From NCBI GenBank assembly GCA_002189035.1, contig NEEC01000002.1, positions 868,001 to 932,000 of the forward strand: a stretch of 64,000 bases of DNA, read 5' to 3'. The translations under genes and the position numbers were made by a program. Shown piece by piece: positions 20,786 to 64,000 of the stretch (its first letter is position 1; the number at the start of each line of letters is the position of its first letter). Source of the DNA: Utricularia gibba. Lineage: Eukaryota > Streptophyta > Magnoliopsida > Lamiales > Lentibulariaceae. The notes beneath the pieces were generated by a model. That model ran no database searches. It was given only the letters and a program-made list of their open reading frames with translations, and had not been told where the DNA came from.

Positions 20786-21486
20786 TTTCGAACACACAAA
20801 AAGTAGGAGAAAAAGGGTGCGTCACAACGGCATTTCCAGAGCGGAAAACTGAAGAAAAGCAACGCTTAAACTTGTCAAGATCGCTGATAGAGTACTAGAG
20901 AGAAATGCAGGTGGCCACTTTCAGCTCCTTCTATTCCCCAAAAAGCGAAGCCATAAATACTGACGGAGAATTAATACATTCAAAACTCAAAAAGCCCCAG
21001 CCTTACATCCAGTGCAGCGAATCTTCTTCCACTTTCAACTCAACAAAGCAAAGCAACAATAATTCCTACTTCTGCAATTAAAAATCCAGTCTTTACTTTC
21101 TTGCTGACCGTTGCCCACCCCGTTTTGAAATATAGCCGTTACTCCCAAGATCAAAGACTCCTATTCATTCCCAAATTCAATTTAAATCTTAAAATCTTTT
21201 ATGCATATTGATTTTTATTTTAAAATATAATTAAAAATTATTCCACATATTATATAAATACATGTGACTGGAATATATATTATATTATAACATAGATGTG
21301 TAGTGAATAATGAAATTGTTTTTTTATATTATGGAAGGATTGCATGGAAATTACAAATTCAATCATTTTTTTAATTAAAATTGCCCCAAAATAAACATAC
21401 AGGAAATTACAATTCAAGAAATGGGATTTTGAATGGAATTTAAAGAATAAAAAAATAATAAATGGAGTGAAGAATAAAGTGTGGCA

Positions 21487-22620
<1,134 letters not shown>

Positions 22621-22714
22621 TGGATCAAGCACCCAGTTGTTTAGGGTTTTTCTTCACTTCAAGGCTTGTTGCCGATGGCGGTGGTGGTGGCTCCGGACAA
22701 CGAACCGCCGCGGG

Positions 22715-22722
22715 TATTTATA
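22715..22722 (-). promoter_or_regulatory. TATA box of peroxidase A
   Basis: Minus-strand TATAAATA in CTATAAATACCC, 95 bp before the ATG. The same octamer sits at similar distances before peroxidases B, C and D. Confidence 0.7.
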
Positions 22723-24123
22723 GTTCAGGAGGATGGAGTCTCACTCATTTTCTGTAAGAAATTTCAACACGATTATGCACCAACTATTCAAAAAACGGCG
22801 CACTCTCATGCAATTAACAACATAAATTAAATCCTTTTTGAAAAAAAATATAATATTTGCAAATTCTGATAAGGTTCGATTCTTTTGATTAGGGAGAATT
22901 TTTTTCTTGTTTTAAACAAAATTTTGAATTTATTAATTATTGATAAATAAATAAATATATATATATATATATAAATGTTCGCCAGCTTGCTTTTGAGGAC
23001 GCGCTGTTGAACAATGACGACCGCTGACTGAAGTAATTTTGACGAATGTTGGGTTTTAATTCTATGTGCTTGTGATTACATTTTCTAACTATGGGTGATT
23101 GAGCAGTTTTTTAATAAAATATTGAGTTTATAATAATTAAATATTAATAAATAGTTTTGATCTCTGGTGGACGGATTAGATAAGGATGTATTAGATTTTA
23201 ATTAACGGTAAATTTAAATTAGTTATATTTAAATGACCGCATATGATTATTGAGAGTATGTTTTATAAAAAGGATTAAAAATTATATTTAAAATATTATT
23301 GTATTTTAATGTGTTAATTTAAAATATATAAACTATATTTGATACATAAATTTCTCGAATATATGTATAAAATAATATTATATTTAATACATATGTTTAA
23401 TATATATATAAAATAAATATCAATACTCAAAAATTCATATATTATAACATTGTTGAATGAATCATAAAAAAAACCTAAAAAACACGCTTGAGTCCTCATA
23501 AAATTTAGAAGTTGAAATGGACGGGATTGTGTGATAAACAAGACTTATGGGGCGATATTGAAATATTAGGTAAAAGTTCCAAGTCTCCAGCTGTGATGAT
23601 CAATCACTCAGTCAAAGACGCGGACAGGGACCCATCCAAAACCCAAATACGACGTCGTTTCCTGGAACCCACACGCCTCCGAGAATCTTTGCATGCAGTG
23701 GCTTTCCCATTAGCTATGTTGTGTTTTTTAACAAAGTAAAGGCGAGCATGAATCATTAGTGTTGTAAAAAAACATCAGTTCTGTCAGTTTTACGCCTTGA
23801 ATACAATGACCGGGCTAGGTTTTCACCTGCAAGACTTGCCCCAGATTCAGAAGATTGACTGTGAAAAGCTAGTTAGTGATTTGTGATTGTATTTTACAGT
23901 ATAAAAAAAGCGAGATTCCCACCAGGTGAATGTTCATACTTCAGCAAAAGGAGCAAAAAGCTTATGTTACAGTATCAAAAAGAGCGAGATTCCCACCAAG
24001 AGAATGTTCATACTTGGGCAAAATGAACAAAAAGTTTAAAGCAGAAGACATTTCTATCTTGACTGAAGAAAATTGAAAAGTATATGTGATGTGAATCTCT
24101 TGTTTTGAAGCTCCATCCTCGCC
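22723..24123. other. Intergenic region between peroxidases A and B
   Basis: AT-rich. It contains an (AT)n run near 22955-22972 and two near-identical stretches of about 40-60 bp (GCGAGATTCCCACCA, GAATGTTCATACTT) at about 23908-23960 and 23972-24020, a small tandem duplication in the peroxidase B promoter. No gene seen. Confidence 0.55.
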
Positions 24124-24131
24124 TATAAATA
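24124..24131 (+). promoter_or_regulatory. TATA box of peroxidase B
   Basis: TATAAATA in CCTATAAATACCG, 76 bp before the ATG at 24207. Confidence 0.75.
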
Positions 24132-24206
24132 CCGTTGCTACTGAATTGTTGGAATCCACCAAGAACCTAGAGAAGGAGAACCATAAGATATACTTCTGTT
24201 CCAACA

Positions 24207-25410
<1,204 letters not shown>

Positions 25411-26210
25411 TCAACCCATTATTCCATGAAGTTGCATTTCCCTCGTCTCCAGTTTCCTCAGTCAGTCAGTCGTCACCTCCGAATTGTCTAGTTCCCATTC
25501 ATTCTTAAACACGTGTTCATTTTCATGCCTCCCCATTTTTGCAAAATAAATATTATGAAATTATAAAAAACCAATCATTAAATCAAAATTAAAATTTTAA
25601 ATTCTACGTTTTAAAAAAAATAACCATGAAGTGACCGTACCAATGAATGCACCAAATTAGAAGCCCTAGTACAATTGAGGGCCTAAATGTGAAAATTGTA
25701 GTAAAACAAGGACCAGATTGTAGTAAACGGAAACATCAGGGGAGGGATTGAAAAGCGAAGTAATTCTTCTAAAAATAATAATAAAAAAGAGACACCCAAA
25801 CATATGTATATTAATAATTACGTTTATTTAATCACATTTATCAAAATTCATTTCTCATAAAAATTTTCTTAATTTAACTTTATTTCCTTTTTCAACATAT
25901 GATAGTGTTGTGACCCATTTCGTACTGATCAGAACTTATCAATTTCATTGAAATGAAGTTTTGTAAACCATGGTTCAATGTTAAATTCAGTTCAAAACCA
26001 GAATAATAAATCTTGAATTGAATCAAAATCAGAACGGAATCGTTGTTTCGATTCGAAACGAAAATAATAAAGAAAATATCACACTAATTTAATGAATTAC
26101 ATTATTGACTTGAGATTTTTTTGAATAGATCATAACAATGCACATTTGTTGAGAATGAGAAGAATATGATGACTGCACTTTGATAAAGGGATTATTCTGT
26201 GAACCGAGGA
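25411..26210. other. Intergenic region between peroxidases B and C (convergent)
   Basis: About 800 bp holding the 3' flanks of two peroxidase genes that face each other. It is AT-rich after about 25540, with no gene or clear repeat. Confidence 0.6.
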
Positions 26211-27419
<1,209 letters not shown>

Positions 27420-27500
27420 TGTTGGAAACAGAGAAGCTTCAAGGTTTTCTTGCACTGAAAAGCTTGCTGTTCGTGTTCCAAAACCTCGTCCCAGTACGTG

Positions 27501-27508
27501 TATTTATA
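27501..27508 (-). promoter_or_regulatory. TATA box of peroxidase C
   Basis: Minus-strand TATAAATA in CTATAAATACACG, 82 bp before the ATG. Confidence 0.7.
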
Positions 27509-28947
27509 GTCGAAAATGGAGCTCGTAGGTCAAATTATGTTACGTTAAGAAAATGGCGTCAGGTCACCAACTACAGGAACCACGTAGGGGAAGAAACATT
27601 CTTCACCTTTCTGCGTTATTTTTTTATTTGTTGACAATGAAAATAGTTAGAATAAATAAAATTTAAATAATATAAATATATTACACAATTATTCAAAATA
27701 TTAAATGGATAAAATATATTTTCGTATCAATTTAAATTATCAAATATGTTGATATTTTTCATTTATAATAATTCCAATTATGAAATAAAGTTTATTAATA
27801 TTTTCATGGCTGTTTTTAAAATATTTTAAATTCCGTTTTTCTCAAAATGCAAAAACTTAATTCCACATATAAATTCTTTTGAAGGTGCAAGGCAGGCGAA
27901 TGTCAACTAATTTAAAAATATAAAAAATGTCGCCATGCAAGTAGTTGACTTTTGAGATTATGGAATCAACGGTACGGATGAGGATGAACCAAGTCCAATC
28001 ACAATCGCACAGCTGGAGGACGTGGTTTTTCAATTTCGCACGTTTTGTCTGACGCGCTTTGGTCCGCACCTTCAATCTAATCCACAACTCCAGTCCACGT
28101 TGTTTTTAAAATTCGATTCCGAAATTGAATCGGTGGAATATTGGTTCAGTCTTGAACCCGGTTTTAACCGACTAAGTTGAATTTCACATGTCAATATTTT
28201 TTAATTTTTTTGTATGTATTTTGCAGCCGAAATTATTTTGATAATTAACATATCGAATTGAAATCGAGCCAAATATCGGTTAAAGAGTTTCAACTCCGCC
28301 ACTTTCAAAATACACTTCCAAAATGATTAGGCTTGGTTGAATTATCAAGTCGAAATGTGTGTTCTGGAAAACTTTTGTAATATATTTTTAATTATATAAA
28401 ATTAAAACTGTTTTGTTTTTTATTTGAAAATTATTGTTACAATATATTTGCATTAATTTTAATTAAAATTAAAAAATCCAATTAATTGTATAATCACATG
28501 TATGAATTTAAGTATATAATAAACATAGATAATATTTTAAAAAATTAAATTCAATTAATTATAAGTGAATTTTATGTTTTTATATATTTAATTATATCAT
28601 TTTAATATTTCAATATCAAAATGTTTGCTCTAATATTTTTATTTCTATTTTTAATTTGTAATCGAGCATCCACAAATTTTCTACGACACTTTTACGTTAA
28701 TTTCTACTCTTAGCTTTTGCAAAAGTAAAAATAAGCTCCATGAATTTTCCAGAACAATGTTAATTCTAAAAAGGTGTATTATTTATATTTTATTCTAAAA
28801 CTTTATTATAATAACTTGGAATAGAAATGCATTTCAGGAAAACAACCAGGGGGGAATGAAAAATAGCAGAAAACCAACATGCAACTCTCTCGGTATTTCA
28901 GAGCTTGTAATGCTTCCTCTCTTGTGAAAGAAAGCACGACCCTGAAC
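27509..28947. other. Intergenic region between peroxidases C and D
   Basis: AT-rich, no gene seen. It contains one copy of the dispersed AT-rich repeat at 28505-28635. The right end is the 3' flank of peroxidase D. Confidence 0.55.
28505..28635 (+). repeat. Dispersed AT-rich repeat, copy 5
   Basis: AATTTAAGTATATAATAAAC at the left, AAATTAAATTCAATTAATTA, TTTTATATATTTAATTAT, then AATATCAAAATGTTTGCTCT at the right end. Same block order as copies 1 and 2. Confidence 0.65.
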
Positions 28948-30056
28948 TCAATTTACGCGCCTGCAGTTGGTCCTGATCTGCCCCTGTGCTCCCGTGAGAG
29001 GGCTCAGGCTTGACATCTTCACCATCGCGGCGGCGAAGGAGCTGAAGAAGGAGGCGGTGTTTGTGGCGAAACCCTGAACTTGCGCGCCAGTTGCGGTGCT
29101 GTTGAGAAGCTCCTGATCGGAATGGAGAAGTCCCCTTTGTGCTACCAAATTCCGGTAGTAGTTGCCGTCGAAAATGGTACTCGACCCAACGTCAAGCGGT
29201 GACAGGTTGTTGTCGCCGGTGCCCGCGGCTCTCGGACAGTTGCCTTGCAACGTAGCTGCGTATCCGGGGCTTATGTTCGTGTCATTGTAGATCCTGTTCC
29301 TGAAAGTCACGCACCTCGCTTGTCCAATCGTGTGTCCACCTGTAAGAGCAGTTCCAAATGTTAAAATGTTTGCTTTGTATTATGATATCGCTTCTTTTTC
29401 CATGATTTACCTGAAAGAGTGACCATCTCACTCGCTGTAAATCCCTTGTTGGAGAAGGCCGAGATGAGGCCGGGAAGGTCTAGGAAAGGCGCCGGGAGGT
29501 CGCTGTTGGCGGCCGACAAGCTCGCCGTGGTCGAGTCCCTTCTCCCGAACGGCACACTCCAACTTGGGCCGCCGAGCTGAAACAAAAGAGACGTGAGTAT
29601 TTTAACATGTAACTGTTGTACTAGGAAAATGCATTGATTCGTCATCGTGGGACTCACCGCAACAACGGAGTCTCTCGCCGCAAGCGCCAAGATATCGCCG
29701 CAAGAGACAACGCCGGGGCACGCCCTCTCCACCTGAGCCTTGATGGTGTCGATCACGTCGAACCCTCTAACCGAGTTTGCGTTAGGAAGCGCCGTCTTCT
29801 CGCCGGTGAACGTCGCCGTGTCGTCCAGCAAAATCGATCCGTCGCACCCCTGAACGAAGCAATCGTGGAAGTGTAGACGAAGCAGGGAGGCGCCCATGCG
29901 GAACTCTCGGGACACGGCGGACAGAACAGCGCCTCTAGCTATCAGAGGAAACTGTGGGCACGTTGCAGCGTAGAACGATGGAGAAAGCTGCGCATTTGCA
30001 GCTGATGCTACAAAGAGCAGAAGCACAAATCTTGCAACAAAGCCTTCACTAGCCAT
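28948..30056 (-). CDS. Class III peroxidase D (secreted)
   Basis: Exons 30056-29658, 29576-29411 and 29339-28948, 318 residues. Intron 1 (after HDCFV in B and C) is missing, so the first exon is 399 nt and runs straight through [13 protein letters not shown]. Exon 2 is again 166 nt. It starts [10 protein letters not shown] with a signal peptide that ends at about ANA, and the mature N terminus is [12 protein letters not shown]. The distal RLHFHDCF, the proximal GHTIGQARC and the C-terminal NCRRVN are intact. This is the most divergent of the four copies ([18 protein letters not shown]) and is more GC-rich in its exons. It is probably a secreted wall peroxidase. An in-frame upstream extension of 34 codons runs into the TATA region and was not used. 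Confidence 0.94.
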
Positions 30057-46464: not shown

Positions 46465-49417
46465 ATGGGGGATTTTAATTTGGCGCTGCTCATCGTGGCG
46501 ATAATTGTTTGCGTCCTAGTTTTCATTTTCAACGTCTACCTTCTTGTCAATTATCAGCATCCGGATGACGTGAATCAGGCTTATTTTCCGAAGTTCGTCG
46601 TGGTTTTGGGGCTCTCGATTGCTGCCATCTCGATTCTCATGCTTCCTGCTGATGTGGCTAACCGGCAGGCCTGTCGCAATTCGCTCTACAACGGCGCGTG
46701 TAGGCTCACCCTGCCCATGAAGGATTTGTGGCTAGCCGTTTACATTGCCGACGCGGTGCTCGTTTTCTTCGTCATTCCTTTTGCAATGTTTTATTACGAA
46801 GGCGACCTGGACAAGTGTGTTCCTTTCTTTAAAAAAGCCTGGTCTTTCTTGCGTTTTTTGGTAGGCTTATCTCGTCTTGAGTTTCTGACCTTTTAATGGG
46901 CTTCTAGGAGTGTTATGAAGAGGGTGAGGAGTGCTTTAGCGTGGGTGATTGCGACTGCTGTCGTTTGCGCGCTTATTTTGGGAATTTTGTACGGTAATTA
47001 ATTTTGCAGTTGCTTTGGTGGTCTCGGTTTCGCGTAGGTTACTTCATCCTATTACTGTACATTTGCTGCAACTATTTTTTATGGCTTGTGTTAAAGGGCT
47101 CGTGGGGTATGTGGATTTCACTGTTACGCATCTCTCTTCAACCACTGCGTCCTTTCCACAGTCTTGGGATTTTTCCCGCAGCCAGCCATGCATTGGAAGT
47201 GGATCGTTTCAGGTCAATGAAGATTGAGTTTTTCTGTGTAATGTTGTGAGTTCAGCTGACAAATTCTCAACTTGTACGCCCTTGTCCAATTTTCAGTGCT
47301 CTGCACATTCTGTTAATGCCTCCGCTGAGACAACATGGACTATGCGCACAACTTTCCCAGAATATGTCGTTGCGTTAGCTACTATTGTTGGATCGGTGCT
47401 GTTTACCGTATGCTCTCTCTCTCCCCCCTTTTTGTCACTGTTCCCTGGTGTTAGCATACACAGCAGTTTGCTAAGTAGATACTCCGCATCATCATATGAC
47501 ATTGGAAATCTTTTGTGGAAATATTATATTTCTGGCTTTTAAATTTCAGCCATGTAGCTTTTTTATGGATACAGCATCTATTCTATTCTGAAAACTGATG
47601 TTTTTTTCTTTTGTTTGGGGGGGATTCTGCAAGCTGATGTTTTGGTTTCTCAACTCTTTAGATATTTGGGGGTATTGGAATTGCGTCCCTTCCACTGGGA
47701 CTGATATTTTCATTTGTTCGCCGGCCAAAGGCTGTTATCACTCGATCCCAGTATATCCGGGTATTACTCTCTTTTGTGCTATTCTCTACTGTTAAATCCA
47801 AATTTGACCGTGTTTAGGCTTATATCCTTGTATTAATACAGGAAGCCACTGAACTTGGAAAAAAAGCGAAAGAACTAAAAAAAACAGCTGATGCACTTCA
47901 CCAGGAAGAAAGAAGTGGAAACAAGGGAAGGAAATGGCGTAAAAATGTGAAAGCTGTTGAGAAGGTAGAATTGTAACAATCCCCCTTTTTTCCTTATTAG
48001 AATTGCTGTTGCTCCGATCACTTTCTTTGATGTTTTGACAATGAAGTTATTCGATTTCTTGTGTCTTTAGGAACTACTTCTGCTGGAAGACGATGTGAAG
48101 GCATTGGAGGAGATGTATCCTCAAGGTGAAAAGGTGATATTGCTGAGCTAATACATCTCGAAAGTTTTATTTTTATATTTAATTTCCTCTGCATTACTAT
48201 ATGGAGCACCAGCTCCCGCATGATTCAGACTGTCCTGGAAGTAGGGTTAGTTGAAACAAAGTAGTAATCACGTTTTTTTTTAACACTTCAGGCTGAGACA
48301 ACATGGGCTCTTACGGTCCTTGGGTATCTAGCTAAACTGGTGCTAGGAGTTTTGGGGTATGTTCTTTTTCGATTTTTCCATTACCTTGTCAACACAATTC
48401 GTGTATGTGAGTTAATGTATCTTCTGTGCAGGTTAATCGTTTCTGTGGCTTGGGTTGCTCATATCATAATATATTTGCTTATCAGTCCTCCTCTTTCTCC
48501 ATTTCTTAATGAGGTCTTCATCACACTGGATGACGTCTGGGGTAGATGAAATTTCCTTTCATGCTATTATTCACGCATGCTAGAGCTCGAGAATTTCTCA
48601 TTAACCTGGAAATTCTACCAACATTTTGTTCATTATTTTTTCGGGCATGGTTCTCTCCCAGGCCTTTTGGGAACAGCGGCATTTGCATTCTTCTGCTTCT
48701 ACTTGTTGATTGCTGTTGTTGCTGGTGCAACAATGCTGGGTCTAAAATTGGTTTTTATCACAATCCATCCTATGAAGTATGCTTTTACTACTTTTGTCTA
48801 TCATATATCTGAATATAATACCTGATATTGTCAGTGGAGTTTGATGCTTAATGTGCCAGAAGTTTATTCTTGTCTGTAGATGGGGAGCTACACTTATGAA
48901 CTCGTTTCTTTTCAATGTTGGTCTGATACTTCTGTGCTCAATAAGGTAGCGGTCCTGAACGCATGTGGTTTCAGTGCACGTGTTTTATTATCATGCTTAC
49001 ATAGTCGATTTTCTTTTGTGGTGGTGCAGTGTTATACAGTTTTGTGCTACGGCTTTTGCATATTATTCCCAGGCAACTGCAGCGCAAGAAATATTTGGCC
49101 ACACTTTGCAGTCCCTCCGTGGAATCAAATATCTATACAGGTCAGCATCTTGTTCTTTTTCTAATGTGTTATTATCATCAGTTCTAGTATTCTGTGTCAC
49201 TCTGATATCGTCTTTTCAGGTATAATGTCTTCCAAATCGGGTTCGTCATTCTTGCGGGCCTTACGTTTGTGTACTATGCAGCCTTCGTAAGTTTTCTCTC
49301 AGTACGCACTTTCTACAATTTTCCCATCGCGACACCATGATCCCACCTCATATTATGGCACAACCGCAGGGATGGAGGAGGAAAAAGATAAGAGGAAGGC
49401 TCCAAGTTTCATCTTGA
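46465..49417 (+). CDS. LMBR1-like (LIMR family) multi-spanning membrane protein
   Basis: Fourteen exons: 46465-46814, 46908-46993, 47097-47212, 47297-47407, 47662-47760, 47842-47964, 48071-48133, 48292-48356, 48432-48541, 48662-48776, 48880-48945, 49030-49140, 49220-49286, 49370-49417. They give 509 residues, the standard plant length. The N terminus [20 protein letters not shown] is typical. Nine or so membrane helices flank a charged cytosolic loop ([36 protein letters not shown]) in exons 6-7. The conserved extracellular piece is [10 protein letters not shown] and [18 protein letters not shown]. The C terminus has [20 protein letters not shown] and a basic tail ending LQVSS. Exon 1 uses donor GACAA|GTGTGT, which restores the expected DKSV junction. 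Function in plants is poorly known; animal relatives are lipocalin receptors and cobalamin transport helpers. Confidence 0.95.
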
Positions 49418-49901
49418 ACATACTACCCTCAGCGTACCTAACTGATTCACATTCTGGCTACACGATTTGATTCCTTTTCCTGAGGAAATGCGCACATGGG
49501 ATTATCAGTTGTATTCGTGCTGTGGGATGTGATGATGGTGCATATTCTTCTCCCCATTCTCCAGTCTGGTGTGTATAACGTCTGACAATGTTGTAAGAGA
49601 AGCTTTTGTGTACTTTTCTCGAATGTATGTGCATTGAGTTATGCGTTGTCGGCTTCAGGATTGTTTCTGTTGGTTATTTCATGAGAAGAATATGTGCTGT
49701 TGAGTTTTCGGGATTCGCCGGTTGTCCGAAGCATGGAAGGATATGAATGAGGACGAATGGCTCCTTATTTCAGTTTGGTCCGGGTCGGGTTCTGAATCGG
49801 TTAGAGCCCGTAACGGTCAAACCCGTTTTTTTCTAAAAAAAGAATGGATATTTCATTGGCACCAAGAGTCAAAAAGAAATATAAAACTAGAAACCTGATA
49901 A

Positions 49902-52917: not shown

Positions 52918-53593
52918 GTGTGGTAGGAATCCTATGCGGGGCATGTAGATTTTCAGAGTCATCTACTGAAAACAAGGGTACTTCAGGATAAAAAAGTTTC
53001 AAACTTGCTTTCACTGTTTTACAAGCATGGTAATCATTCCATTCTGCATTGCAATCGGTAATGGAGCCCACATCACGAACCAATGAAATTGCTGATCTAT
53101 GTCCACAGGTGTGAGGCCACCAGCAGGTTAGTTTTGTCTTTCTTTTTCAGGCTTTTACCTTTAAAATACACGCAAAAGCAATTTTTTTTACAACAAAGAC
53201 AAAGGGGAAAGAAAGAATCCTATGGTTTGAAAATTCAAGGCGCTACTAATGAATAAATGCGGCCAGATCAGAGCAGACCCACAGCCATGATTTCAAGTTT
53301 GTAATCTCCATTCCTCACACCTGCATTGCATTACCTTGTCTTTGTGATTCAAATCTCTTCAGCTGTTTCTTTCACAAACACCCAATTCTCTGCTGTGGAT
53401 CGTCTCTAAATCAGCTACTTGTCTCTGAAAACGAAAGCCAAATATTGTATGCTGCTCTTCTCCTCATCTACTCATTACATTTCTTTTTCTCATTACAAGG
53501 TCTAAACTTTTGTTGGTAACTCTGCTTGATCTTGATCTTGATCTTTGTGGTGTGCAAATGCTGACATCTTCTTTGCAGCTTAGAGAAGGGGGA

Positions 53594-54731
53594 ATGGCGA
53601 GGGGAGGTGATGGGAGTTTGGAGATGCTTCTGGAGGAGAATGGAGAAGGCAGTAAACCAGAGAGCTTGTTGAAGGTGATGAAGCAGAATGATGATGAGAC
53701 TGAGAATTCTGATGGATTCCTGAATCTGGAGGCAGGGCATGAATGGTGATTTTTCATTTTCTTGGGGGCTTATATGCAAATAGTTGTCTTCTCTTGTCAC
53801 AAAAGAACCGTTGTTTAATTTTGTGATTTGCTGTAAAAGTTGCGTTTGAATCCTTAGGGATCTGGGCGGCGACGACGACGCTTCTTGCTCACTCAACGGA
53901 TCTGCTTCTCCCTCTTTGCAGCCCGTTACGCCGCCGACATCCGACTCCTCCGCCACAGCTATCCGGAAAACAGTTTCTTCATGGCGAAAAACAGTAAAAC
54001 CTGGGAAAAGCATTCCGCCCCCTGCTTCCATTCCTGATTCACGTCCATCTTCTTCTGCTAAGTCAAGGGGGGCACCCGTCAAATGCCATTCGTCCAGAGC
54101 CATCGTTGTGGCGGCTCGGAAAACGCTAACTCCAACGAGTAATCGTGCTGCGTCATCTTCCCTCGATCGTTCTTCATCATTGAGAAAACCAGCTTCCCCT
54201 GAGACAAACCTCCGCCCTGCATCAGCATCAAGAGGAAGGCCGAATTCAGGGAAAGTAAACCCGAGGCAGCAGTCGTGCTCACCTTCCCGATTGCGCAACA
54301 ATTACCGGAAACCGGGAAACATGGTGGCGTCACGAAGTAAAGGGTGCAATTCTGGCAGTGGAGATGAAGTTAACCCTGTTTTAATTGGGACCAAAATGGT
54401 GGAAAGAGTAGTGAATATGAGAAAATTGGCTCCACCGAAAGAAGAACAACGCCAACCTCGGGATCATGACAAGAAACCTTCCAAAGGGAATTCTGGTTTT
54501 GGGAGATCGTTTTCGCAGAAATCCTTAGAAATGGCCATCAGACATATGGTATCCTGTTGTACTCTGTTCTTTGATTTCCTTAAAAAAATGTTCTTGGCAT
54601 GACTCGCTGTCTGTGTTCAGGATATTCGAAGAAGCATTCCCGATGACTTCGCAAGAACTGCGGGAGCCTCACACGCCGGCAGAACCCAGTCTAAGTTCAG
54701 CGGTATGCAAGTCCATAGCCAGAAAAAGTGA
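53594..54731 (+). CDS. Serine/proline-rich basic protein (At3g09000-like), copy 1
   Basis: Three exons, 53594-53745, 53858-54548 and 54621-54731, joined in phase to 317 residues. The N terminus MARGGDGSLEMLLEENGEG is acidic. Exon 2 is low-complexity, rich in Ser, Pro, Arg and Lys (TPPTSDSSATAIRKTVSSW, KSIPPPASIPDSRPSSSAK). The C terminus has the conserved block KMVERVVNMRKLAPPK, then GFGRSFSQKSLEMAIRHM|DIRRSIPD, with the last intron exactly between HM and DIRR, as in the plant family of serine/arginine-rich or 'endochitinase A-like' proteins (At3g09000, At3g08670 type, from memory). It is largely disordered and predicted basic; such proteins are reported as microtubule-associated or remain uncharacterised. 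An in-frame upstream ATG (53558) would add 12 residues. The intact copy of the tandem pair. Confidence 0.85.
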
Positions 54732-55438
54732 GTGAAGGGGATTGGGAAGAAAACGATTGTAACGTTGTGTTATTTGAAAAACAGCACTTCTGAAACTTGT
54801 TTTGTGGTCTGAGCTAAACAAAACTCAAGCTCTGCTTCTATACGAGAATTTGGTAAGGGGCTTATGACACGATTGTCTGATCTTATCACGAACCTTAAAA
54901 TTGAATCCATTTCTTCCCTCCTAAAATTTGTTGTCATCTGCCATTGCTTGGCGCTTGTGAACCATTTTCAAAGACTCCATGCGCTTTGTTGGCATGTGCT
55001 GTAATCGTTGAAACTTTCAACGGTTGACGGTTTTATGATTGTCTAACTCTTGGCTGAGTTGGACAAACGCCTATACGCCCACTTTTTAAAGTTTGGATAA
55101 ATGAATATCTCATGTGGTTGATTGCCTTGCAGCTTCCGGTATCGCGCTTATGGCATGGTTGATTGCCTTGCAGCTTCCATGTGGATGATACGCCTTGTTG
55201 AGTCAGGAAACTTGTCGCTGTTTTCTCACACACCCACACGCTCAAGAAATAGCTTTGCTTCCTCCTCAACTTTCATTTGCCTGATAAGGGGCTGATTGAT
55301 AGCCAAGCTCTGAGATCAGATTGTGGGTGTTTTTTTATTTTGAACTTTCAGCGGTTCTCTTTTTGTCAGTGATCTTACAGGATTTGACACCTGGGAGTGG
55401 GTCTTCTGGTGCACTTGGGAGCAAAAGAAGAAGCAAAA

Positions 55439-57300
55439 ATGGCGGCAGTCGTAAGAGTAATGGGTGAGTTTTCCGGTAGCATAACGAATGCTTTCTCCTG
55501 ATATTTGTAGCTTGAATTGCATACAACCTAAGAATTTAACCGGATCTGCAGTGCTGTTATGGGTGGACATTCTGGCTATTTACGCTATGTTTGTGATGAT
55601 GGCATACTTGACGAAAGTTTGGGATCTCAGTTTCACTGATGCAACACTGGTGGTGAACGTCTTTTGGGGAGCGGTTTTCATAGCCCCGCTGTTCCTCACA
55701 CACCTCGTCGACACGTTGATGGGAAATTATTCGATGCTTTTGATCTCCAGCTTAGCTTATGCTGTTGTATGCTTCTCATCCTTTCGTTTCCCCGTCAATT
55801 CTGCAGTGCTCTCTACCTCTAGCTTGATGTGTTCGATTTGATTGCATTCCAGGGGTTGGGGCTTCTTGCAATGTCAACCCCGCCGGTGACGGGAAACTGC
55901 AAAGAGTACAAGCCCGAATGCATCAGCGACGCCCAGAAGAGACTTTTCTATGCAGCTTTGTCTTTGACTGCATTTGGGATGGCCGGCCATTTTGCATCTT
56001 TGAAGACATTCCTGGACGAACAGATGATCGGAGAAGAGGATAGCATCAGATTCTGTATCGGCATCGTTGCCGTCTTCTTTGTCAGTTTGGCTGCAATTAT
56101 AGCGATACCGTACATAAAGCCTTGGTCTGTTCGTTTTGCGATCCCAGCCATCTGCACTCTGGTTGCAACTCTTCTGTTCATGAGCGGCTCATGTTCCTAC
56201 AACTACGTTGGGCCTCAGGGCAGTCCCCTGACCGTGTTTGTTCGTGTGTTTGTAGCTGCTACATTGAAAATGTTTTGCAGACTTACTACAGATCCCAATC
56301 AACTGTATGAAGTCCGGAATGGGGAAGATGAGCTGATTCCCAACACTCGAAGCCTGAGGTTCGTTCGTGCCTCTCTCTGTCGTGATCTTGCTCTCTTTCA
56401 CCAGCAACTGAGTTGCAGAACTCTTGCTTCAGATGCTTGGATAAGGCCGCAGTTATATTAACCTCGAGACGTCAAGAGAATCAGGAGAGGAACAGATGGA
56501 CGCTGTGCAGAGTCACTGAAGTGGAGGAAACCAAAACCATCATACGCATGATTCCTGTCTGGATGACCTTCATCTTATGCGGCATCGTCTCCGCCATCGG
56601 ACTGACGTTCTTCGTCCAGCAACTGGAGCATCTGAACCGCAAAGTTGGCAAGCTAACGGTGCCCACGGTAGTCCTTCTAGGGTTCTACGCGCAAGCCCAG
56701 AATACGGGTGAGCAACTCTACAAAAAGCTTGCAAAATCAGACAACGAAGGTGGATCTTGGAAGTTGGCCCCTCCAATCGCCATCTCAATTTCGATGATCC
56801 TGGCTGTTCTTTGCTGCATCACAGCCGCTAAAGTGGAGGAAAGGCGGCTGGGAGTCGTGGAAAGGCATGGTTTAGTCGACAAGCCGGATGCAAGAGTGCC
56901 CATGACCATGTTCTGGCTGCTCCCACAGTTTCTCCTCCTCGGTGCATTCAACGGCCTCTTCAAATCCTCCGCCGAAGGCTTCTTCATCGATCAATCCCCT
57001 AAATCGACAGGGAGATACATTCCATGGTTTGTAACTGGTGTCTTGGGGATCGGAACGCTCGGCAGCAGTCTGTGCGTTTATGTGGTCGGGAAACTGAGTG
57101 AACGAGGTGGGAGAAGGAACTGGTTCCAGCATCACCTCAACGCAAGCAGGGTGGATAAGTACTTCTGGACCCTGGCTTGGCTGATCGCCGTGAATCTCGT
57201 CGTTTTCATCGTGGTGGCGAAACTTTTTCCGGTGCAACGAATCTCGGATCGAAGAAGAAGCAATGGAGTTTGGCGGGATGGAAGAGCCGTACCAGGATGA
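55439..57300 (+). CDS. NRT1/PTR (NPF) family transporter, NPF5.5-like, copy 1; C terminus frameshifted
   Basis: Exons 55439-55463, 55552-55766, 55853-56358 and 56433-57300, giving 537 residues as read. The first exon is only 25 nt (MAAVVRVMG). Helices follow: LLWVDILAIYAMFVMMAYL, VFWGAVFIAPLFLTHLVDT, GLGLLAMSTPPVTGNCKEY (an NPF-like loop), then two six-helix halves linked by a charged loop, DKAAVILTSR and EVEETKTIIRMIPVWMTFI. NPF proteins import nitrate, peptides or hormones with protons. The ExxER proton motif of TM1 is not visible; the place is taken by VDILAIY. Compared with copy 2, copy 1 has one extra T in AAACTTTTTCC (57225-57231), which turns the tail into FPVQRISDRRRSNG and stops at 57300; otherwise the frame would run to a poly-Cys end near 57329. 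The internal loop is six codons shorter than in copy 2. Confidence 0.9.
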
Positions 57301-58230
57301 GAACCGCCGATGCTGCTGCTGCTGCTGATACTGAAGAAGACGAAGCGATGGAGTCATCCGTACACCGGTTGTTTGCAGGGGGAGTATGACTCCCGAACAC
57401 AATGGAAAGTAAATTACATAAAAAAACCCCAAAATTTAATACTTTGTTAAAATTAATCATCAATTTGTAATATACATGATGCCCACTGTATAATTTATTT
57501 CATAAATTTCGTATATCAATCATAATTAATTTTTAAAATTTGATGTATGTAGTATTGGTCTTTTACGATTCATAATATTCAAAAATTAATTGAAAGTTAA
57601 TTTTTTTTCAAATTTTTAAATAATTGAAAATTAATAATATCCATTATCTCAAATAATAGATATTAAATTATTAGAAATCAATTTTGCACTGTATAAAACT
57701 AATGAATATCAGTTTTGCTAATGTTTAAAATAGTGTATACAATATTAAAACATTAAGATCATTTCTATAATTTTCACAAATATTGGAAATCAATAATATT
57801 ATATATATATATATATATACATTTAAGGAACTTCAAGTGAACTAAACATTTATGTCCCAACCTATCCGAGTGGTCAATCTAGAGCGAGCCTTCTTCACTC
57901 CCTTTGAATTTTAAAGTTGCTTTGCCCACAGTCGCCAACCAAGAATCCAATGCATTTACATTTACATCATTTTTATAAACAAATAGTATAAAATTAAAAA
58001 TTAATTATTTAAATTTTTAATTTTTAATTTTTTAATAAAAATTATTGAAGCTAATTCAAAAAAACCAATAATTTTCATTAAAACGAGTCTAGATCTATAT
58101 TCAATATCAAATTTTAAAACAGTATTTTTCTATAGATACAACGTTTAAACTTTTGTTGGTAACTCTGCTTGATCTTGATCTTTGTGGTGTGCAAATGCAA
58201 GCATCTTCTTTGCAGCTTAGGGAAGGGGGA
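57301..58230. other. AT-rich spacer between tandem units
   Basis: 3' flank of NPF copy 1, a TGC microsatellite (57309-57328), AT-rich DNA with an (AT)n run near 57785-57815, then the start of unit 2 at about 58145. No gene. The text around 57840-57990 is repeated at about 62995-63180. Confidence 0.6.
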
Positions 58231-59777
58231 ATGGCGAGGGGAGGTGATGGGAGTTTGGAGATGCGTCTGGGGAGAGTGAAGAAGGCAGAAAACCAGAGAG
58301 CTTGTTGAAGGTGATGAAGCAGAATGATGATGAGACTGAGAATATTGAGGGATTCCTGAATCTGGAGGCAGGGCATGAATGGTGAGTTTTCATTTTCTTG
58401 GGGGTTTATATGCAAATAGTTGTCTTCTCTTGTCACAAAAGAACCGTTGTTTGATTTTGTGGCTTGCTGTAAAAGTTGCGTTTGAATCCTTAGGGATCTG
58501 GGCGGTGACGACGACGCTTCTTGCTCACTCAACGGATCGGCTTCTCCCTCTTTGCAGCCCGTTACGCCGCCGACATCCGATGAAAGGATTTGAGATGTTT
58601 GAGGGTTGATCACTTGCGCAGCAGAAATTGTTGAGAGAATTTCTTTAAAAAGGATGTTGAAAAACCTCTTTGTATGTTTTTTGTTCCTTTATGTTACATG
58701 AATTTATAGACGGAGAAGATAGTTGACCGTTGGGTATGTCAGGGCTTGTCTTCCGACCGTTGCTCTGTGTCATTAACACGGTAGCTGTTCTCGGTGCTTC
58801 GTTGTACAGCTGCTTTGCGTGCCTTCGTGGGCTTGTAGGATTTTGACTCCTGAGTATTCCTGCTGGACCTTAAGACTCGAAGGTTTAGGCCCAACAATAA
58901 TGAGTCCACTTTCCCAATCTGATCGAGGGCTGTTTTTCCTGAGATCAGTGGAGATGGTGAGAAGTCCTTTTTCGTCGATTGCTCCTCTTTGATTCTTCAT
59001 TCCCTCATCAATCACCAACATCCGACTCCTCCGCCACAGCTATCCGGAAAACAGTTTCTTCATGGCGAAAAACAGTAAAACCTGGGAAAAGCATTCCGCC
59101 TCCTGCTTCCATTCCCGATTCACGTCCATCTTCTTCTGCTAAGTCAAGGGGGGCGCCGTCAAATGCCATTCATCCAGAGCCGTCATTGTGGCGGCTCAGA
59201 AAACGCTAACTCCATCGAGTAATCGTGCTGCGTCATCTTCCCTCGATCGTTATTCATCATTGAGAAAACCAGCGCCCTGCATCAGCATCAAGAGGAAGGC
59301 CGAATTCAGGGAATGTAAACCCGAGGCGGCAGTCGTGCTCACCTTCCCGATTGCGGAACGACTACCAGAAACCGGGAAACATGGTGGGGTCACGAAGTAA
59401 AGGGTGCAATTCTGGCAGTGGAGATGAAGTTAACTCTGTTTTGATTGCCAAAATGGTGGAAAGAGTATTGAATATGAGGAAATTTTCTCCACCGTATGTA
59501 GAACAGCGCCAACCTCTGGATCATGACAAGAAACCTTCCAAAGGGAATTCTGGTTTTGGGAGATCGTTTTCGCGGAAATCCTTAGAAATGGCCATCAGAC
59601 ATATGGTACTCTGTTCTTTGATTTCCTTAAAAAAAATGTTCTTGGCATGAATCCCTGTCTGTGTTCAGGATATTCGAAGAAGCATTCCCGATGACTTAGC
59701 AAGAACTGTGGGAGCCTCACACGCCAGCAGAACCCAGTCTAGGTTCAGCCGTACAAGTCCATAGCCAGAAAAAGTGA
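58231..59777 (+). pseudogene. Serine/proline-rich basic protein, copy 2, disrupted
   Basis: Clear relic of the copy 1 gene. Exon 1 begins MARGGDGSLEM at 58231 but carries a short indel near 58268 that shifts the frame (MRLGRVKKAENQRAC then stop). Exon 2 is interrupted at 58580 by a solo LTR. After it the frame is again broken by a one-base loss (GGGGCGCCGTC versus GGGGCACCCGTC in copy 1, near 59155) and by a deletion of about 20 bp near 59272. The 3' part is well preserved (GFGRSFSRKSLEMAIRHM, DIRRSIPDD) and would end at 59777. Multiple independent lesions make this a pseudogene rather than an assembly slip. The splice sites are kept, so it may still be transcribed. Confidence 0.88.
58581..59020 (-). 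mobile_element. Solo LTR of a retrotransposon inserted in the pseudogene (440 bp)
   Basis: Insertion relative to copy 1. It is bracketed by TCCGA at 58576-58580 and 59021-59025, a 5-bp target duplication, if the element is taken as TGAAAGGATT...CACCAACA; on the minus strand it runs TGTTGGTGATTG...ATCCTTTCA, so it has TG...CA ends typical of LTRs. A minus-strand CTATAAATTC (about 58700-58712) could be its TATA box, followed by T-rich and AACAATTTCTG-like sequence. No internal coding region is left. The wider match ACATCCGA on both sides is explained by the element ending in ACA next to a site that also has ACA. Confidence 0.75.
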
Positions 59778-60579
59778 GTGGAGGAAATTGGGAAGAAAAT
59801 AATTGTACCGTTGCGTTATTCGAAAAACAGCACTTCTGAAACTTGTTTTGTGGTCTGAGCTAAACAAAACTCAAGCTTTGCTTCTATACGAGAATTTGGT
59901 AAGGGGCTTATGACACGATTGTCTGATCTTATCAGGAACCTTAAAGTTGAATCCATTTCTCCCCTCCTAAAATTTGTTGTCATCTGCCATTGGTTGGCGC
60001 TTGTGAACCATTTTCAACGATTACATGCGCGTTGTTGGTAAGTGCTGTAATCGTTGAAACTTTCAACGGTTGACGGTTTTATGATTGTCAACTCTTGCCT
60101 GAGTCGGACAAACGCCTATACGCCTACTTTTTAAAGTTTGGATAAATAATATCCCACGTGGTTGATTGCCTTGCAGCTTCCGGTACCGCGCTTATGGCAT
60201 CGGTAAACTCTTTTGGGCGAAGAGACTGCACTGTGTTTGGCATCTTATGTTACTGGTCTTTGATTTACGCAGGCGATGATACGCCTTGTTGAATCAGGGG
60301 AAACTTGACGCTATTTTCTCACACGCCCACACGCTCGTTTCCTGGTGTATATTATATACACAGCAACCCCCTCTTTCCTACCCAAAAGAAGAAGCTTTGC
60401 TTCCTCCTCAACTTTCATTTGCCTGATAAGGGGCTGATTGATAGCCAAGCTCTGAGATCAGATTGTGGGTGTTCTTTTCTTTTGAACTTTCAGGGGTTCT
60501 CTTTTAGTCAGTGACCTTACAGAGTTGACACCTGGGGGTGGAGTTTCTGGTGCACTTGGGAGAAAAAGAAGAAGCAAAA

Positions 60580-62479
60580 ATGGCGGCAGTCGGAAGAGTA
60601 ATGGGTGAGTTTGCCGGTAGCATAACGAATGGTTTCTCCTTATGTTTGCTGCTTGTATTGCATAAAAACTAAGAATTTAACCGGATCTGCAGTGCTGTTA
60701 TGGGTGGACATTCTGGCTATGTACGCTATGTATGTGATGATGGCCTACTTGACGGATGTTTGGGATCTCAGTTTCACTGATGCAACACTCATGGTGAACG
60801 TCTTCTGGGGAGCGGTTTTCATAGCCCCCCTGTTCCTCACGCACCTCGTCGACACGTTGATGGGAAATTATTCGATGCTTTTGATCTCCAGTTTAGCTTA
60901 TGCTGTTGTATGGTTCTCATCCTTTCGTTTCCCCATCAGTTCTACACTGCTCTCTGCCTCTAGCTTGATGTGTTCGATTTGATTGCATTCCAGGGGTTGG
61001 GTCTTCTTGCAATGTCAACCCCGCCGGTGATGGGAAACTGCAAAGAGTACAAGCCCGAATGCATCAGCGACGCCCAGAGGAGACTTTTCTATGCAGCTTT
61101 GTCTTTGACTGCATTTGGGATGGCCGGCCATTTTGCAACTTTCAATGCATTCATGGCCGAACAGATGGCTGGAGAAGAAGATAACATGAGTGAAGGCACT
61201 GCCTGCAGATTCTGTATCGGCATGCTTTCCGTCTTCTTTGTCAGTTTCGCTGCAATTATAGCTATACCGTACATAAGGCCCTGGTCTGTTCGTTTTGCGA
61301 TCCCAGCCATCTGCACTCTGGTTGCAGCTCTTCTGTTCATGAGCGGCTCATGTTCCTACAACTACGTTGGGCCTCAGGGAAGTCCCCTGACCGTGTTTGT
61401 TCGTGTGTTTGTAGCTGCTACATCGAAAATGTTTTGCAGAATTCCTACAGATCCCAATCAACTGTATGAAGTCCGGATCGGGGAAGATGAGCTGATTTCC
61501 CACACTCGAAGCCTGAGGTTCATGCCTCTCTCTCTGTTGTAATCTAGCTCTTTTTCTAGCTACTGAGTTGCAGAACTCTTGTTTCAGATGCTTGGATAAG
61601 GCAGCTGTTATAGTAACCTCGAGACCTCAAGAGGAGCAGGAGAGGAACAGATGGACGATGTGCAGAGTCACTGAAGTGGAGGAAACCAAAACCATCATAC
61701 GAATGATTCCTGTCTGGATGACCTTCATCTTATGCGGCGTCGTCTCCGCCATCGGACTGACGTTCTTCGTCCAGCAACTGGAGCATCTGAACCGCAAAGT
61801 TGGCAAGCTAACGGTGCCCACGGTAGTCCTTCTAGGGTTCTACGAACAAGCTCAGAACACGGGTGGGCAACTCTACAAAGAGCTTGCACAGTCACTCAAC
61901 GGGGGTTTGAGGAAGTTGGCCCCTCCAATCGGCATCTCATTTTCGATGATCCTGGCTGTTCTTTGCTGCATCACAGCCGCTAAAGTGGAGGAAAGGCGGC
62001 TGGGAGTCGTGGAAAGGCATGGTTTAGTCGACAAGCCGGATGCAAGAGTGCCCATGACCATGTTCTGGCTGCTCCCACAGTTTCTCCTCCTCGGTGCATT
62101 CGACGGCCTTTTCAAATCCGCCGCCGTTGAGTTCTTCATCGACCAATCCCCTCAATCGACAGGGAAATACATTCCATGGTTTATAAATGCTGTCTGGGGG
62201 ATCGGAACGCTCGGCAGCAGTCTGTGCGTTTATGTGGTCGGGAAACTGAGCGAACGAGGTGGGAGAAGGAACTGGTTCCAGCATGACATCAACGCGAGCA
62301 GGGTGGATAAGTATTTCTGGACCCTGGCTTGGCTGATCGCCGTGAATCTCGTCGTTTTCATCGTGGTGGCGTTACTTTTCCGGTACAACGAATCTCGGAT
62401 CGAAGAAGACGAAGAAATGGAGTTTGACGGGATGGAAGAGCCGTACCAGGATGAGAACCCTCGATGCTGCTGCTGCTGA
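60580..62479 (+). CDS. NRT1/PTR (NPF) family transporter, NPF5.5-like, copy 2
   Basis: Exons 60580-60604, 60693-60907, 60994-61517 and 61588-62479, 551 residues, uninterrupted. Starts MAAVGRVMVLLWVDILAMYA; helix, loop and motif order as in copy 1. Distinct features are the insertion EGTAC in the cytosolic loop after TM4-5 (absent in copy 1), and a C-terminal tail ESRIEEDEEMEFDGMEEPYQ that is acidic and ends in four Cys encoded by a TGC repeat. The canonical ExxER proton motif at the start of TM1 is not seen; the helix reads VDILAMYAMYVMMAYLT. This is the NPF5.5 type by my recollection of Arabidopsis At2g38100; the substrate is unknown. Exons, introns and flanks are highly similar to copy 1, so duplication is recent. 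The sequence is a good reference for reading copy 1. Confidence 0.92.
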
Positions 62480-64000
62480 TACTGATCAAGAGTCATCCGT
62501 ACACCGGTGGCCTGCAGGGGGAAGATGACGACTCCTCATCACAATGGAAAGTAAATTACATCAATAAAATCCCAAAATTTAATACTTTGTTAAAAGTTAA
62601 TGATCAATTTTTAATATAAATTATGTAATTTATTCCCACTGTATAACTTATTTCCAAAATTTCGTACATCAATCATAATTAATTTTTAAAATTTGATGTA
62701 TAAAATTTTGGTTTTTCCCAATTCAAAATAAGTTTCATACGATTCAAAAATTAGACATGATTAATTGAATATTAGTTTTTAAATAATTGAAAATGAATAG
62801 TATCAATTATTTCAAATAATAGATACTAAATAATTAGAAATCAATTTTGCAGTGTATAAAAATAATGAAAATCAATTTTATTAATGTTTTAAAATAGTGT
62901 ATATAACATTAAGATCACTTTTATAATTTTCAAAAATAATGAAAATCAATAATATATATATATAGATTGTTTGTGCATTTTAACGGGTTTCAAGAAAACT
63001 AAACATTTATGTCCCAACCTATCCAAGTGGTCCATCTGGCTGAAGATAATTGGTTAAGGCATCGGTGGTCAATCTAGAGGCAAGCCTTCTCACTCCCTTT
63101 GAATTTTAAAGTTGCTTTGCCCACAGTCGCCAACCAAAGAATCCAATGCATTTACATTTACATTATATTTTATAAAAAAATATTATATATGTAAAATTAA
63201 TTATTTAAAATTTATCCTTCTTACTTGATCGCTAATCCATCAAAAGTTCTTGTGAGACAATCTGACTCACTCAGATGATTTTGAAATCTAGCCATCTATA
63301 ATTGAATCAATAGTCAACCCTATGGTAGCATTATTGAAATTATGCAACAAATAGATCAAGAGATCAAATACGTGAAATCTAGGTACAAAATAAATGTATA
63401 TCATATTACAAAAGATTAAGTTAATTTAATTATCAATAATTTATGATTTTTTATATATTTTACTATTTTAATTCCAAATATTGATATGAAATTATTTATT
63501 GTAATAAATATAATTAAACAAGTTACTGGTTCTGACACCCACTAGTCAAATTGGAGTTACCTGAACAGTGTCCTTGACGCACTCCTGTTGATTTCCACGT
63601 GTTCTCCACGATGCGTTGGTGTTGGAATTTATCACTCCTCACTGTTGATGATGCGACACAAGGAGACCGGTGTCCTCGACATCGTCCCCACAATTGAATG
63701 AAGGGAGAAGCATGTCTGTTCTTTCTTATTTTGAACAACCCATTTTTCACAATCCTATTCTTTTTTATATAAAATAATTGCCAAGGTGTGACACAATGAG
63801 ATAAACACGAAAAATATATGGAATCAATTATAATTGATATTTCGTCGTTTCCGATTCTATGTTTGATCATGTCACAACATATAGTCGTGGATATGTTGGG
63901 TGATGTATCACTTCAGGGTGATGTATATTATTAATCATATCATTAATAATAGGGAAGAAGAAAATCGATCGATTCATTTATATGTATATTATTTAATGGG
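62480..64000. other. Intergenic region at the right end
   Basis: Downstream flank of NPF copy 2. It repeats the flank of unit 1 up to about 63208, followed by unique AT-rich DNA with an AT-rich repeat copy at 63375-63507. 63523-63870 holds a minus-strand open frame with no family motif; not called. The window ends inside intergenic DNA. Confidence 0.55.
63375..63507 (+). repeat. Dispersed AT-rich repeat, copy 9
   Basis: AAATCTAGGTACAAAATAAA at the left, AATTATCAATAATTTATGAT, TTTTTATATATTTTACTAT, then GAAATTATTTATTGTAATAA at the right end. Confidence 0.55.

Follow-up and report, generated by a model that had tools for sequence, protein, structure and literature searches.

A direct tandem duplication of a serine-rich protein gene and an NPF transporter gene in Utricularia gibba, with lesions in opposite units

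The 64,000-nucleotide stretch of the Utricularia gibba genome analysed here (hereafter the window) contains two plus-strand duplication units, which self-BLAST and global alignment place at 53494–58017 (unit 1) and 58137–63213 (unit 2). Each unit carries a gene for a serine-rich basic protein and a gene for an NPF (POT/PTR2) transporter. Self-BLAST of the window recovered one strong direct repeat in this region, made up of four collinear direct matches, in agreement with the original prediction of two almost abutting units of about 4.5 and 5 kb with two genes each. Aligned segment by segment, as had been proposed alongside that prediction, the units are 94.0% identical over 53494–53944 and 58137–58580, 91.8% over 53934–55159 and 59015–60204, 89.7% over 55244–57880 and 60386–63037, and 91.4% over 57870–58017 and 63065–63213. 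The junction between them (58018–58136) is 119 bp of AT-rich DNA without a counterpart in the other unit, and a genome search identified it as part of a dispersed repeat with about 20 genomic relatives. Base-by-base alignment revealed duplication of exons and introns together with the intergenic DNA; the accompanying claim that the flanks are repeated as well held only in part, as the 5′ flank is the one exception. Homology starts approximately 64 bp before the ATG of the serine-rich gene, and sensitive BLAST upstream of that point detected no further homology between the units. Judged from its sequence, the locus represents a genuine tandem duplication, in direct orientation, of a segment with two genes.

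Substitutions between the units amount to 5–6% in genic DNA and 13–17% in the 3′ AT-rich part; broken down further, divergence is about 5% in the serine-rich and intergenic DNA compared with about 11% in the NPF introns and about 16% in the 3′ AT-rich DNA. Ks between copies is 0.081 for the NPF gene and 0.059 for the serine-rich gene. Taken together, Ks values of 0.06–0.08 and a genic divergence of 5–6% indicate that the duplication is moderately recent, such that its initial description as “recent” holds in a relative sense. Gene conversion of the 5′ half was considered and is not claimed (changepoint test over the genic part, p = 0.07). Unequal crossing-over via repeats was likewise rejected: the outer ends of the units share no repeat, and a dispersed AT-rich repeat is present at the right end only. 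Elsewhere in the window, self-BLAST identified repeats of about 0.1–0.9 kb in both direct and inverted orientation, clustered at 21472–29831 and 72–83% identical. A segment of the left flank (47008–49619) has a 75% identical counterpart at C2:5256486–5259076, which is probably an old duplicate, and no serine-rich or NPF match was found near that counterpart.

The unit 1 serine-rich gene (53558–54731, plus strand) is intact, as predicted, with three exons (53558–53745, 53858–54548, and 54621–54731), GT-AG introns, and an open frame encoding a protein of 329 amino acids with a pI of 10.2 and 16% serine. A search against Pfam returned no family match for this protein; a paralogue with common conserved motifs and an exon starting DIRR is located on contig C213. 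The unit 2 copy, delimited by alignment and translation (58195 to approximately 59764, plus strand), has four disabling lesions compared with none in unit 1: exon 1 has lost 1 bp, exon 2 contains a 440-bp LTR insertion, and there are additional 1-bp and 20-bp deletions. The frameshifts and solo LTR that had been reported for this copy are therefore real, and these frame-disrupting lesions, set against the intact paralogue, identify it as a pseudogene. Ka/Ks between the serine-rich copies is 0.79, which is expected if one copy is unconstrained.

The 440-bp insertion (58581–59020) is a solo LTR: it has TG...CA ends, no internal region, and a target-site duplication within the 4–6 bp range, in this case the 5-bp sequence TCCGA (left copy 58576–58580, right copy 59021–59025). 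It appears to be oriented on the minus strand, where it begins with TGTTGG and contains the TATA-like sequence CTATAAAT. Only one other copy was detected in the genome, on contig C505; this copy also has TG...CA ends, the 5-bp duplication that flanks it is CATTT, and the 5.5 kb inspected contained no second LTR. The insertion resembles known solo LTRs of LTR retrotransposons in its TG...CA ends, its 5-bp duplication, and the existence of a second copy with a duplication of its own, but differs in that just two copies were detected and no full-length parent or relative was found in the genome. The TGTTGG start offers a lead towards a Copia-like element, although the internal domain is absent from a solo LTR. 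A hAT-like element with an 8-bp target duplication was considered and rejected: the repeat in question, ACATCCGA, is the LTR end ACA together with the 5-bp duplication, and the C505 copy agrees with this reading. No inverted repeats were found inside the 440-bp insert.

Both NPF genes lie on the plus strand and have four exons, and all of their introns are GT-AG; the gene models rest on splice sites and reading frame. The unit 1 gene (55439–57300; exons 55439–55463, 55552–55766, 55853–56358, and 56433–57300) encodes 537 amino acids with a shifted C-terminal tail, and the unit 2 gene (60580–62479; exons 60580–60604, 60693–60907, 60994–61517, and 61588–62479) encodes 551 amino acids with no lesion found, consistent with its earlier description as intact. 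A longer, unspliced first exon was dropped from consideration, as the GT-AG model yields the same N-terminus as the paralogues. The PTR2 domain (PF00854) was identified in both proteins above the gathering cut-off of 27 bits (unit 1, 114.1 bits, E = 9e-33; unit 2, 124.0 bits, E = 8.8e-36). Both share this domain with NRT1.1/NPF6.3, a reference of solved structure, and align to it across residues 55–575; they differ from it in having a short N-terminus, no visible ExxER/K motif in TM1, and no equivalent of Lys164. The short N-terminus suggests a transporter of the NPF5.5 type (At2g38100), which is our assumption.

Contig C142 carries three further relatives of the tandem NPF genes, one of them truncated. 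None of the four full-length members of this sub-clade has a visible ExxER/K motif in TM1 (exons 55552–55766 and 60693–60907 of the tandem pair, the other two members being on C142), and TM1 of the tandem NPFs reads LLWVDILAIYAM / LLWVDILAMYAM. The motif is found in many but not all NPF/POT members (PMC12780319); NPF2a and NPF7 likewise lack it, and it is unnecessary for family membership. At the Lys164 site the four full-length members have F, F, M, and D, compared with K or R in 10 of 11 other readable NPFs. The truncated copy on C142 is inverted, at a distance of about 98 kb from the full-length gene from which it derives, with 1.5 kb at 99.7% identity (C142:493600–499900, about 996–2969; C142:593400–597000), and duplication with decay has therefore occurred a second time, and much more recently, in this sub-clade. 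In the second C142 gene (minus strand, near 5110 of C142:493600–499900), a G run of exon 2 differs by one base, which breaks the frame and represents either a genuine lesion or an error in the homopolymer.

Three changes distinguish the unit 1 NPF copy, and none of them is present in unit 2. Alignment confirmed the reported tail shift, which results from an extra T in unit 1 (T5 compared with T4 in unit 2, at approximately 57224–57228, plus strand); the frameshift falls after TM12 and replaces an acidic tail with a basic one. The other two changes are new relative to the original prediction. An 18-bp (6-residue) deletion near TM5 (56046/56047, plus strand) is derived in unit 1 according to outgroup comparison. 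In TM10, the position equivalent to Glu476 of NRT1.1 is encoded by AAC (Asn) in unit 1 (56950–56952, plus strand) and by GAC (Asp) in unit 2; this D422N change is also derived in unit 1, as both C142 paralogues have D. The equivalent residue is acidic in all 33 of the genome's other NPF copies that were compared, with Glu in 21 and Asp in 12. In NRT1.1, transport is abolished by E476A and not by E476D (PMC3950950). These mutant data transfer weakly to the tandem NPFs because the sub-clade lacks Lys164 and the TM1 ExxER/K motif. Transport by the unit 1 protein may be reduced. Against a profile of 33 NPF paralogues, unit 2 scored 243 bits and unit 1 scored 234 bits, 9 lower. Given these changes, the unit 1 NPF gene is probably damaged and eroding.

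One possibility that must be weighed is that the unit 1 frameshift is a sequencing error, in which case the NPF copies would differ just by substitutions and in-frame indels. The lesion is a single T within a homopolymer, and long-read consensus sequences can contain errors in such runs; a G run in the related C142 gene likewise differs by one base. On the other hand, comparable NPF exons in the assembly read through without a frameshift in 32 of 33 cases, such that an assembly error at the tail site is possible but should not be the default assumption; moreover, D422N is a base substitution and is independent of the frameshift. We regard an error at this site as a real, if minor, possibility.

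One may also postulate a scenario in which neither NPF copy has lost its function: the duplication would have doubled or diversified the transporter, with the serine-rich copy as a passenger, and the unit 1 changes would represent divergence (a new tail and different coupling) rather than decay. Several observations fit this scenario. Both frames are open and their splice sites are intact, the unit 1 frame extending over 537 amino acids with a complete membrane core, and the sub-clade is already non-canonical at the coupling residues. Ka/Ks between the NPF copies is 0.67 (0.44–1.04; Ka 0.054, Ks 0.081), with an upper bound near 1 that accommodates neutral drift of one copy without establishing it. 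Residue change is similar on both branches, and the counts of polarisable changes (unit 1, 9; unit 2, 14) indicate that unit 1 is not evolving faster; neither Ka/Ks nor the residue counts thus provide a clear asymmetry between the copies. Nevertheless, it is unit 1 that has lost the acid kept in 33 of 33 other NPF copies compared and that also carries the tail frameshift and the 6-residue deletion, which makes the scenario of two functional transporters unlikely. A more specific version, in which the unit 1 protein is not dying but persists as a transporter-like protein that lacks the TM10 acid and whose tail is basic rather than acidic, possibly an uncoupled carrier or sensor beside the normal copy in a probably carnivorous plant, strikes us as a long shot. 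The idea that two haplotypes were placed end to end during assembly, suggested by units that abut and contain the same genes, is hardly credible given that the units differ by the genic and 3′ AT-rich substitutions described above, by the 440-bp LTR, and by many indels, lie inside a 6.8-Mb contig, and have a left flank without a near-identical second copy, and that the genome searched (100.09 Mb, 516 contigs) yielded no third copy of the unit or of either of its genes.

The explanation we consider rather likely is tandem duplication followed by decay in opposite units, leaving one working set composed of the serine-rich gene of unit 1 and the NPF gene of unit 2. Some 4.5 kb of DNA, from roughly 64 bp ahead of the serine-rich ATG to about 0.7 kb past the NPF stop, was duplicated in tandem. 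Each NPF copy retained about 0.7 kb of its own 5′ flank, and the unit 2 serine-rich copy almost none. That copy sits behind the 3′ DNA of the unit 1 NPF gene, without its own upstream flank, and because its homology with unit 1 reaches back no more than about 64 bp from the ATG, it was probably born without a promoter and would then have drifted. Promoter loss would account for the death of the serine-rich gene rather than the neighbouring NPF gene. Since the upstream flank is missing, this decay probably has a cause other than the solo LTR; an LTR retrotransposon is likely to have inserted as a late visitor and recombined to a solo LTR, and the missing promoter is the simpler cause. The redundant NPF pair would in turn have experienced a partial loss of constraint, under which the unit 1 copy would have gained its deletion near TM5, the TM10 Asp-to-Asn change, and its frameshifted tail. 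The likely end state would be a single working set, one gene from each unit.

Regarding the original prediction as a whole, its observation is confirmed and its interpretation partly supported. Its view that each unit has one good and one damaged gene stands for the dead unit 2 serine-rich copy and is strengthened by the additional unit 1 NPF lesions, while the damage to the unit 1 NPF gene is probable rather than observed; its description of the decay as one-sided fits poorly, as the lesions sit in opposite units. The locus resembles other tandem segmental duplications with pseudogenisation in its direct tandem copies, common introns and flanks, and lesions in redundant copies. It differs from the usual case in having two genes per unit and lesions in opposite units, and is otherwise not unusual; overall, this is ordinary birth-and-death evolution. 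It has one instructive detail, namely that the breakpoint probably decided which gene died first: a tandem duplicate would be sorted by its breakpoints, with a gene that lacks its upstream flank decaying and a gene that keeps its flanks being given a trial period. The NPF pair, in turn, would constitute a natural test of the importance of the TM10 acid in a transporter of this family from which the canonical coupling residues, ExxER and Lys164, are already missing.
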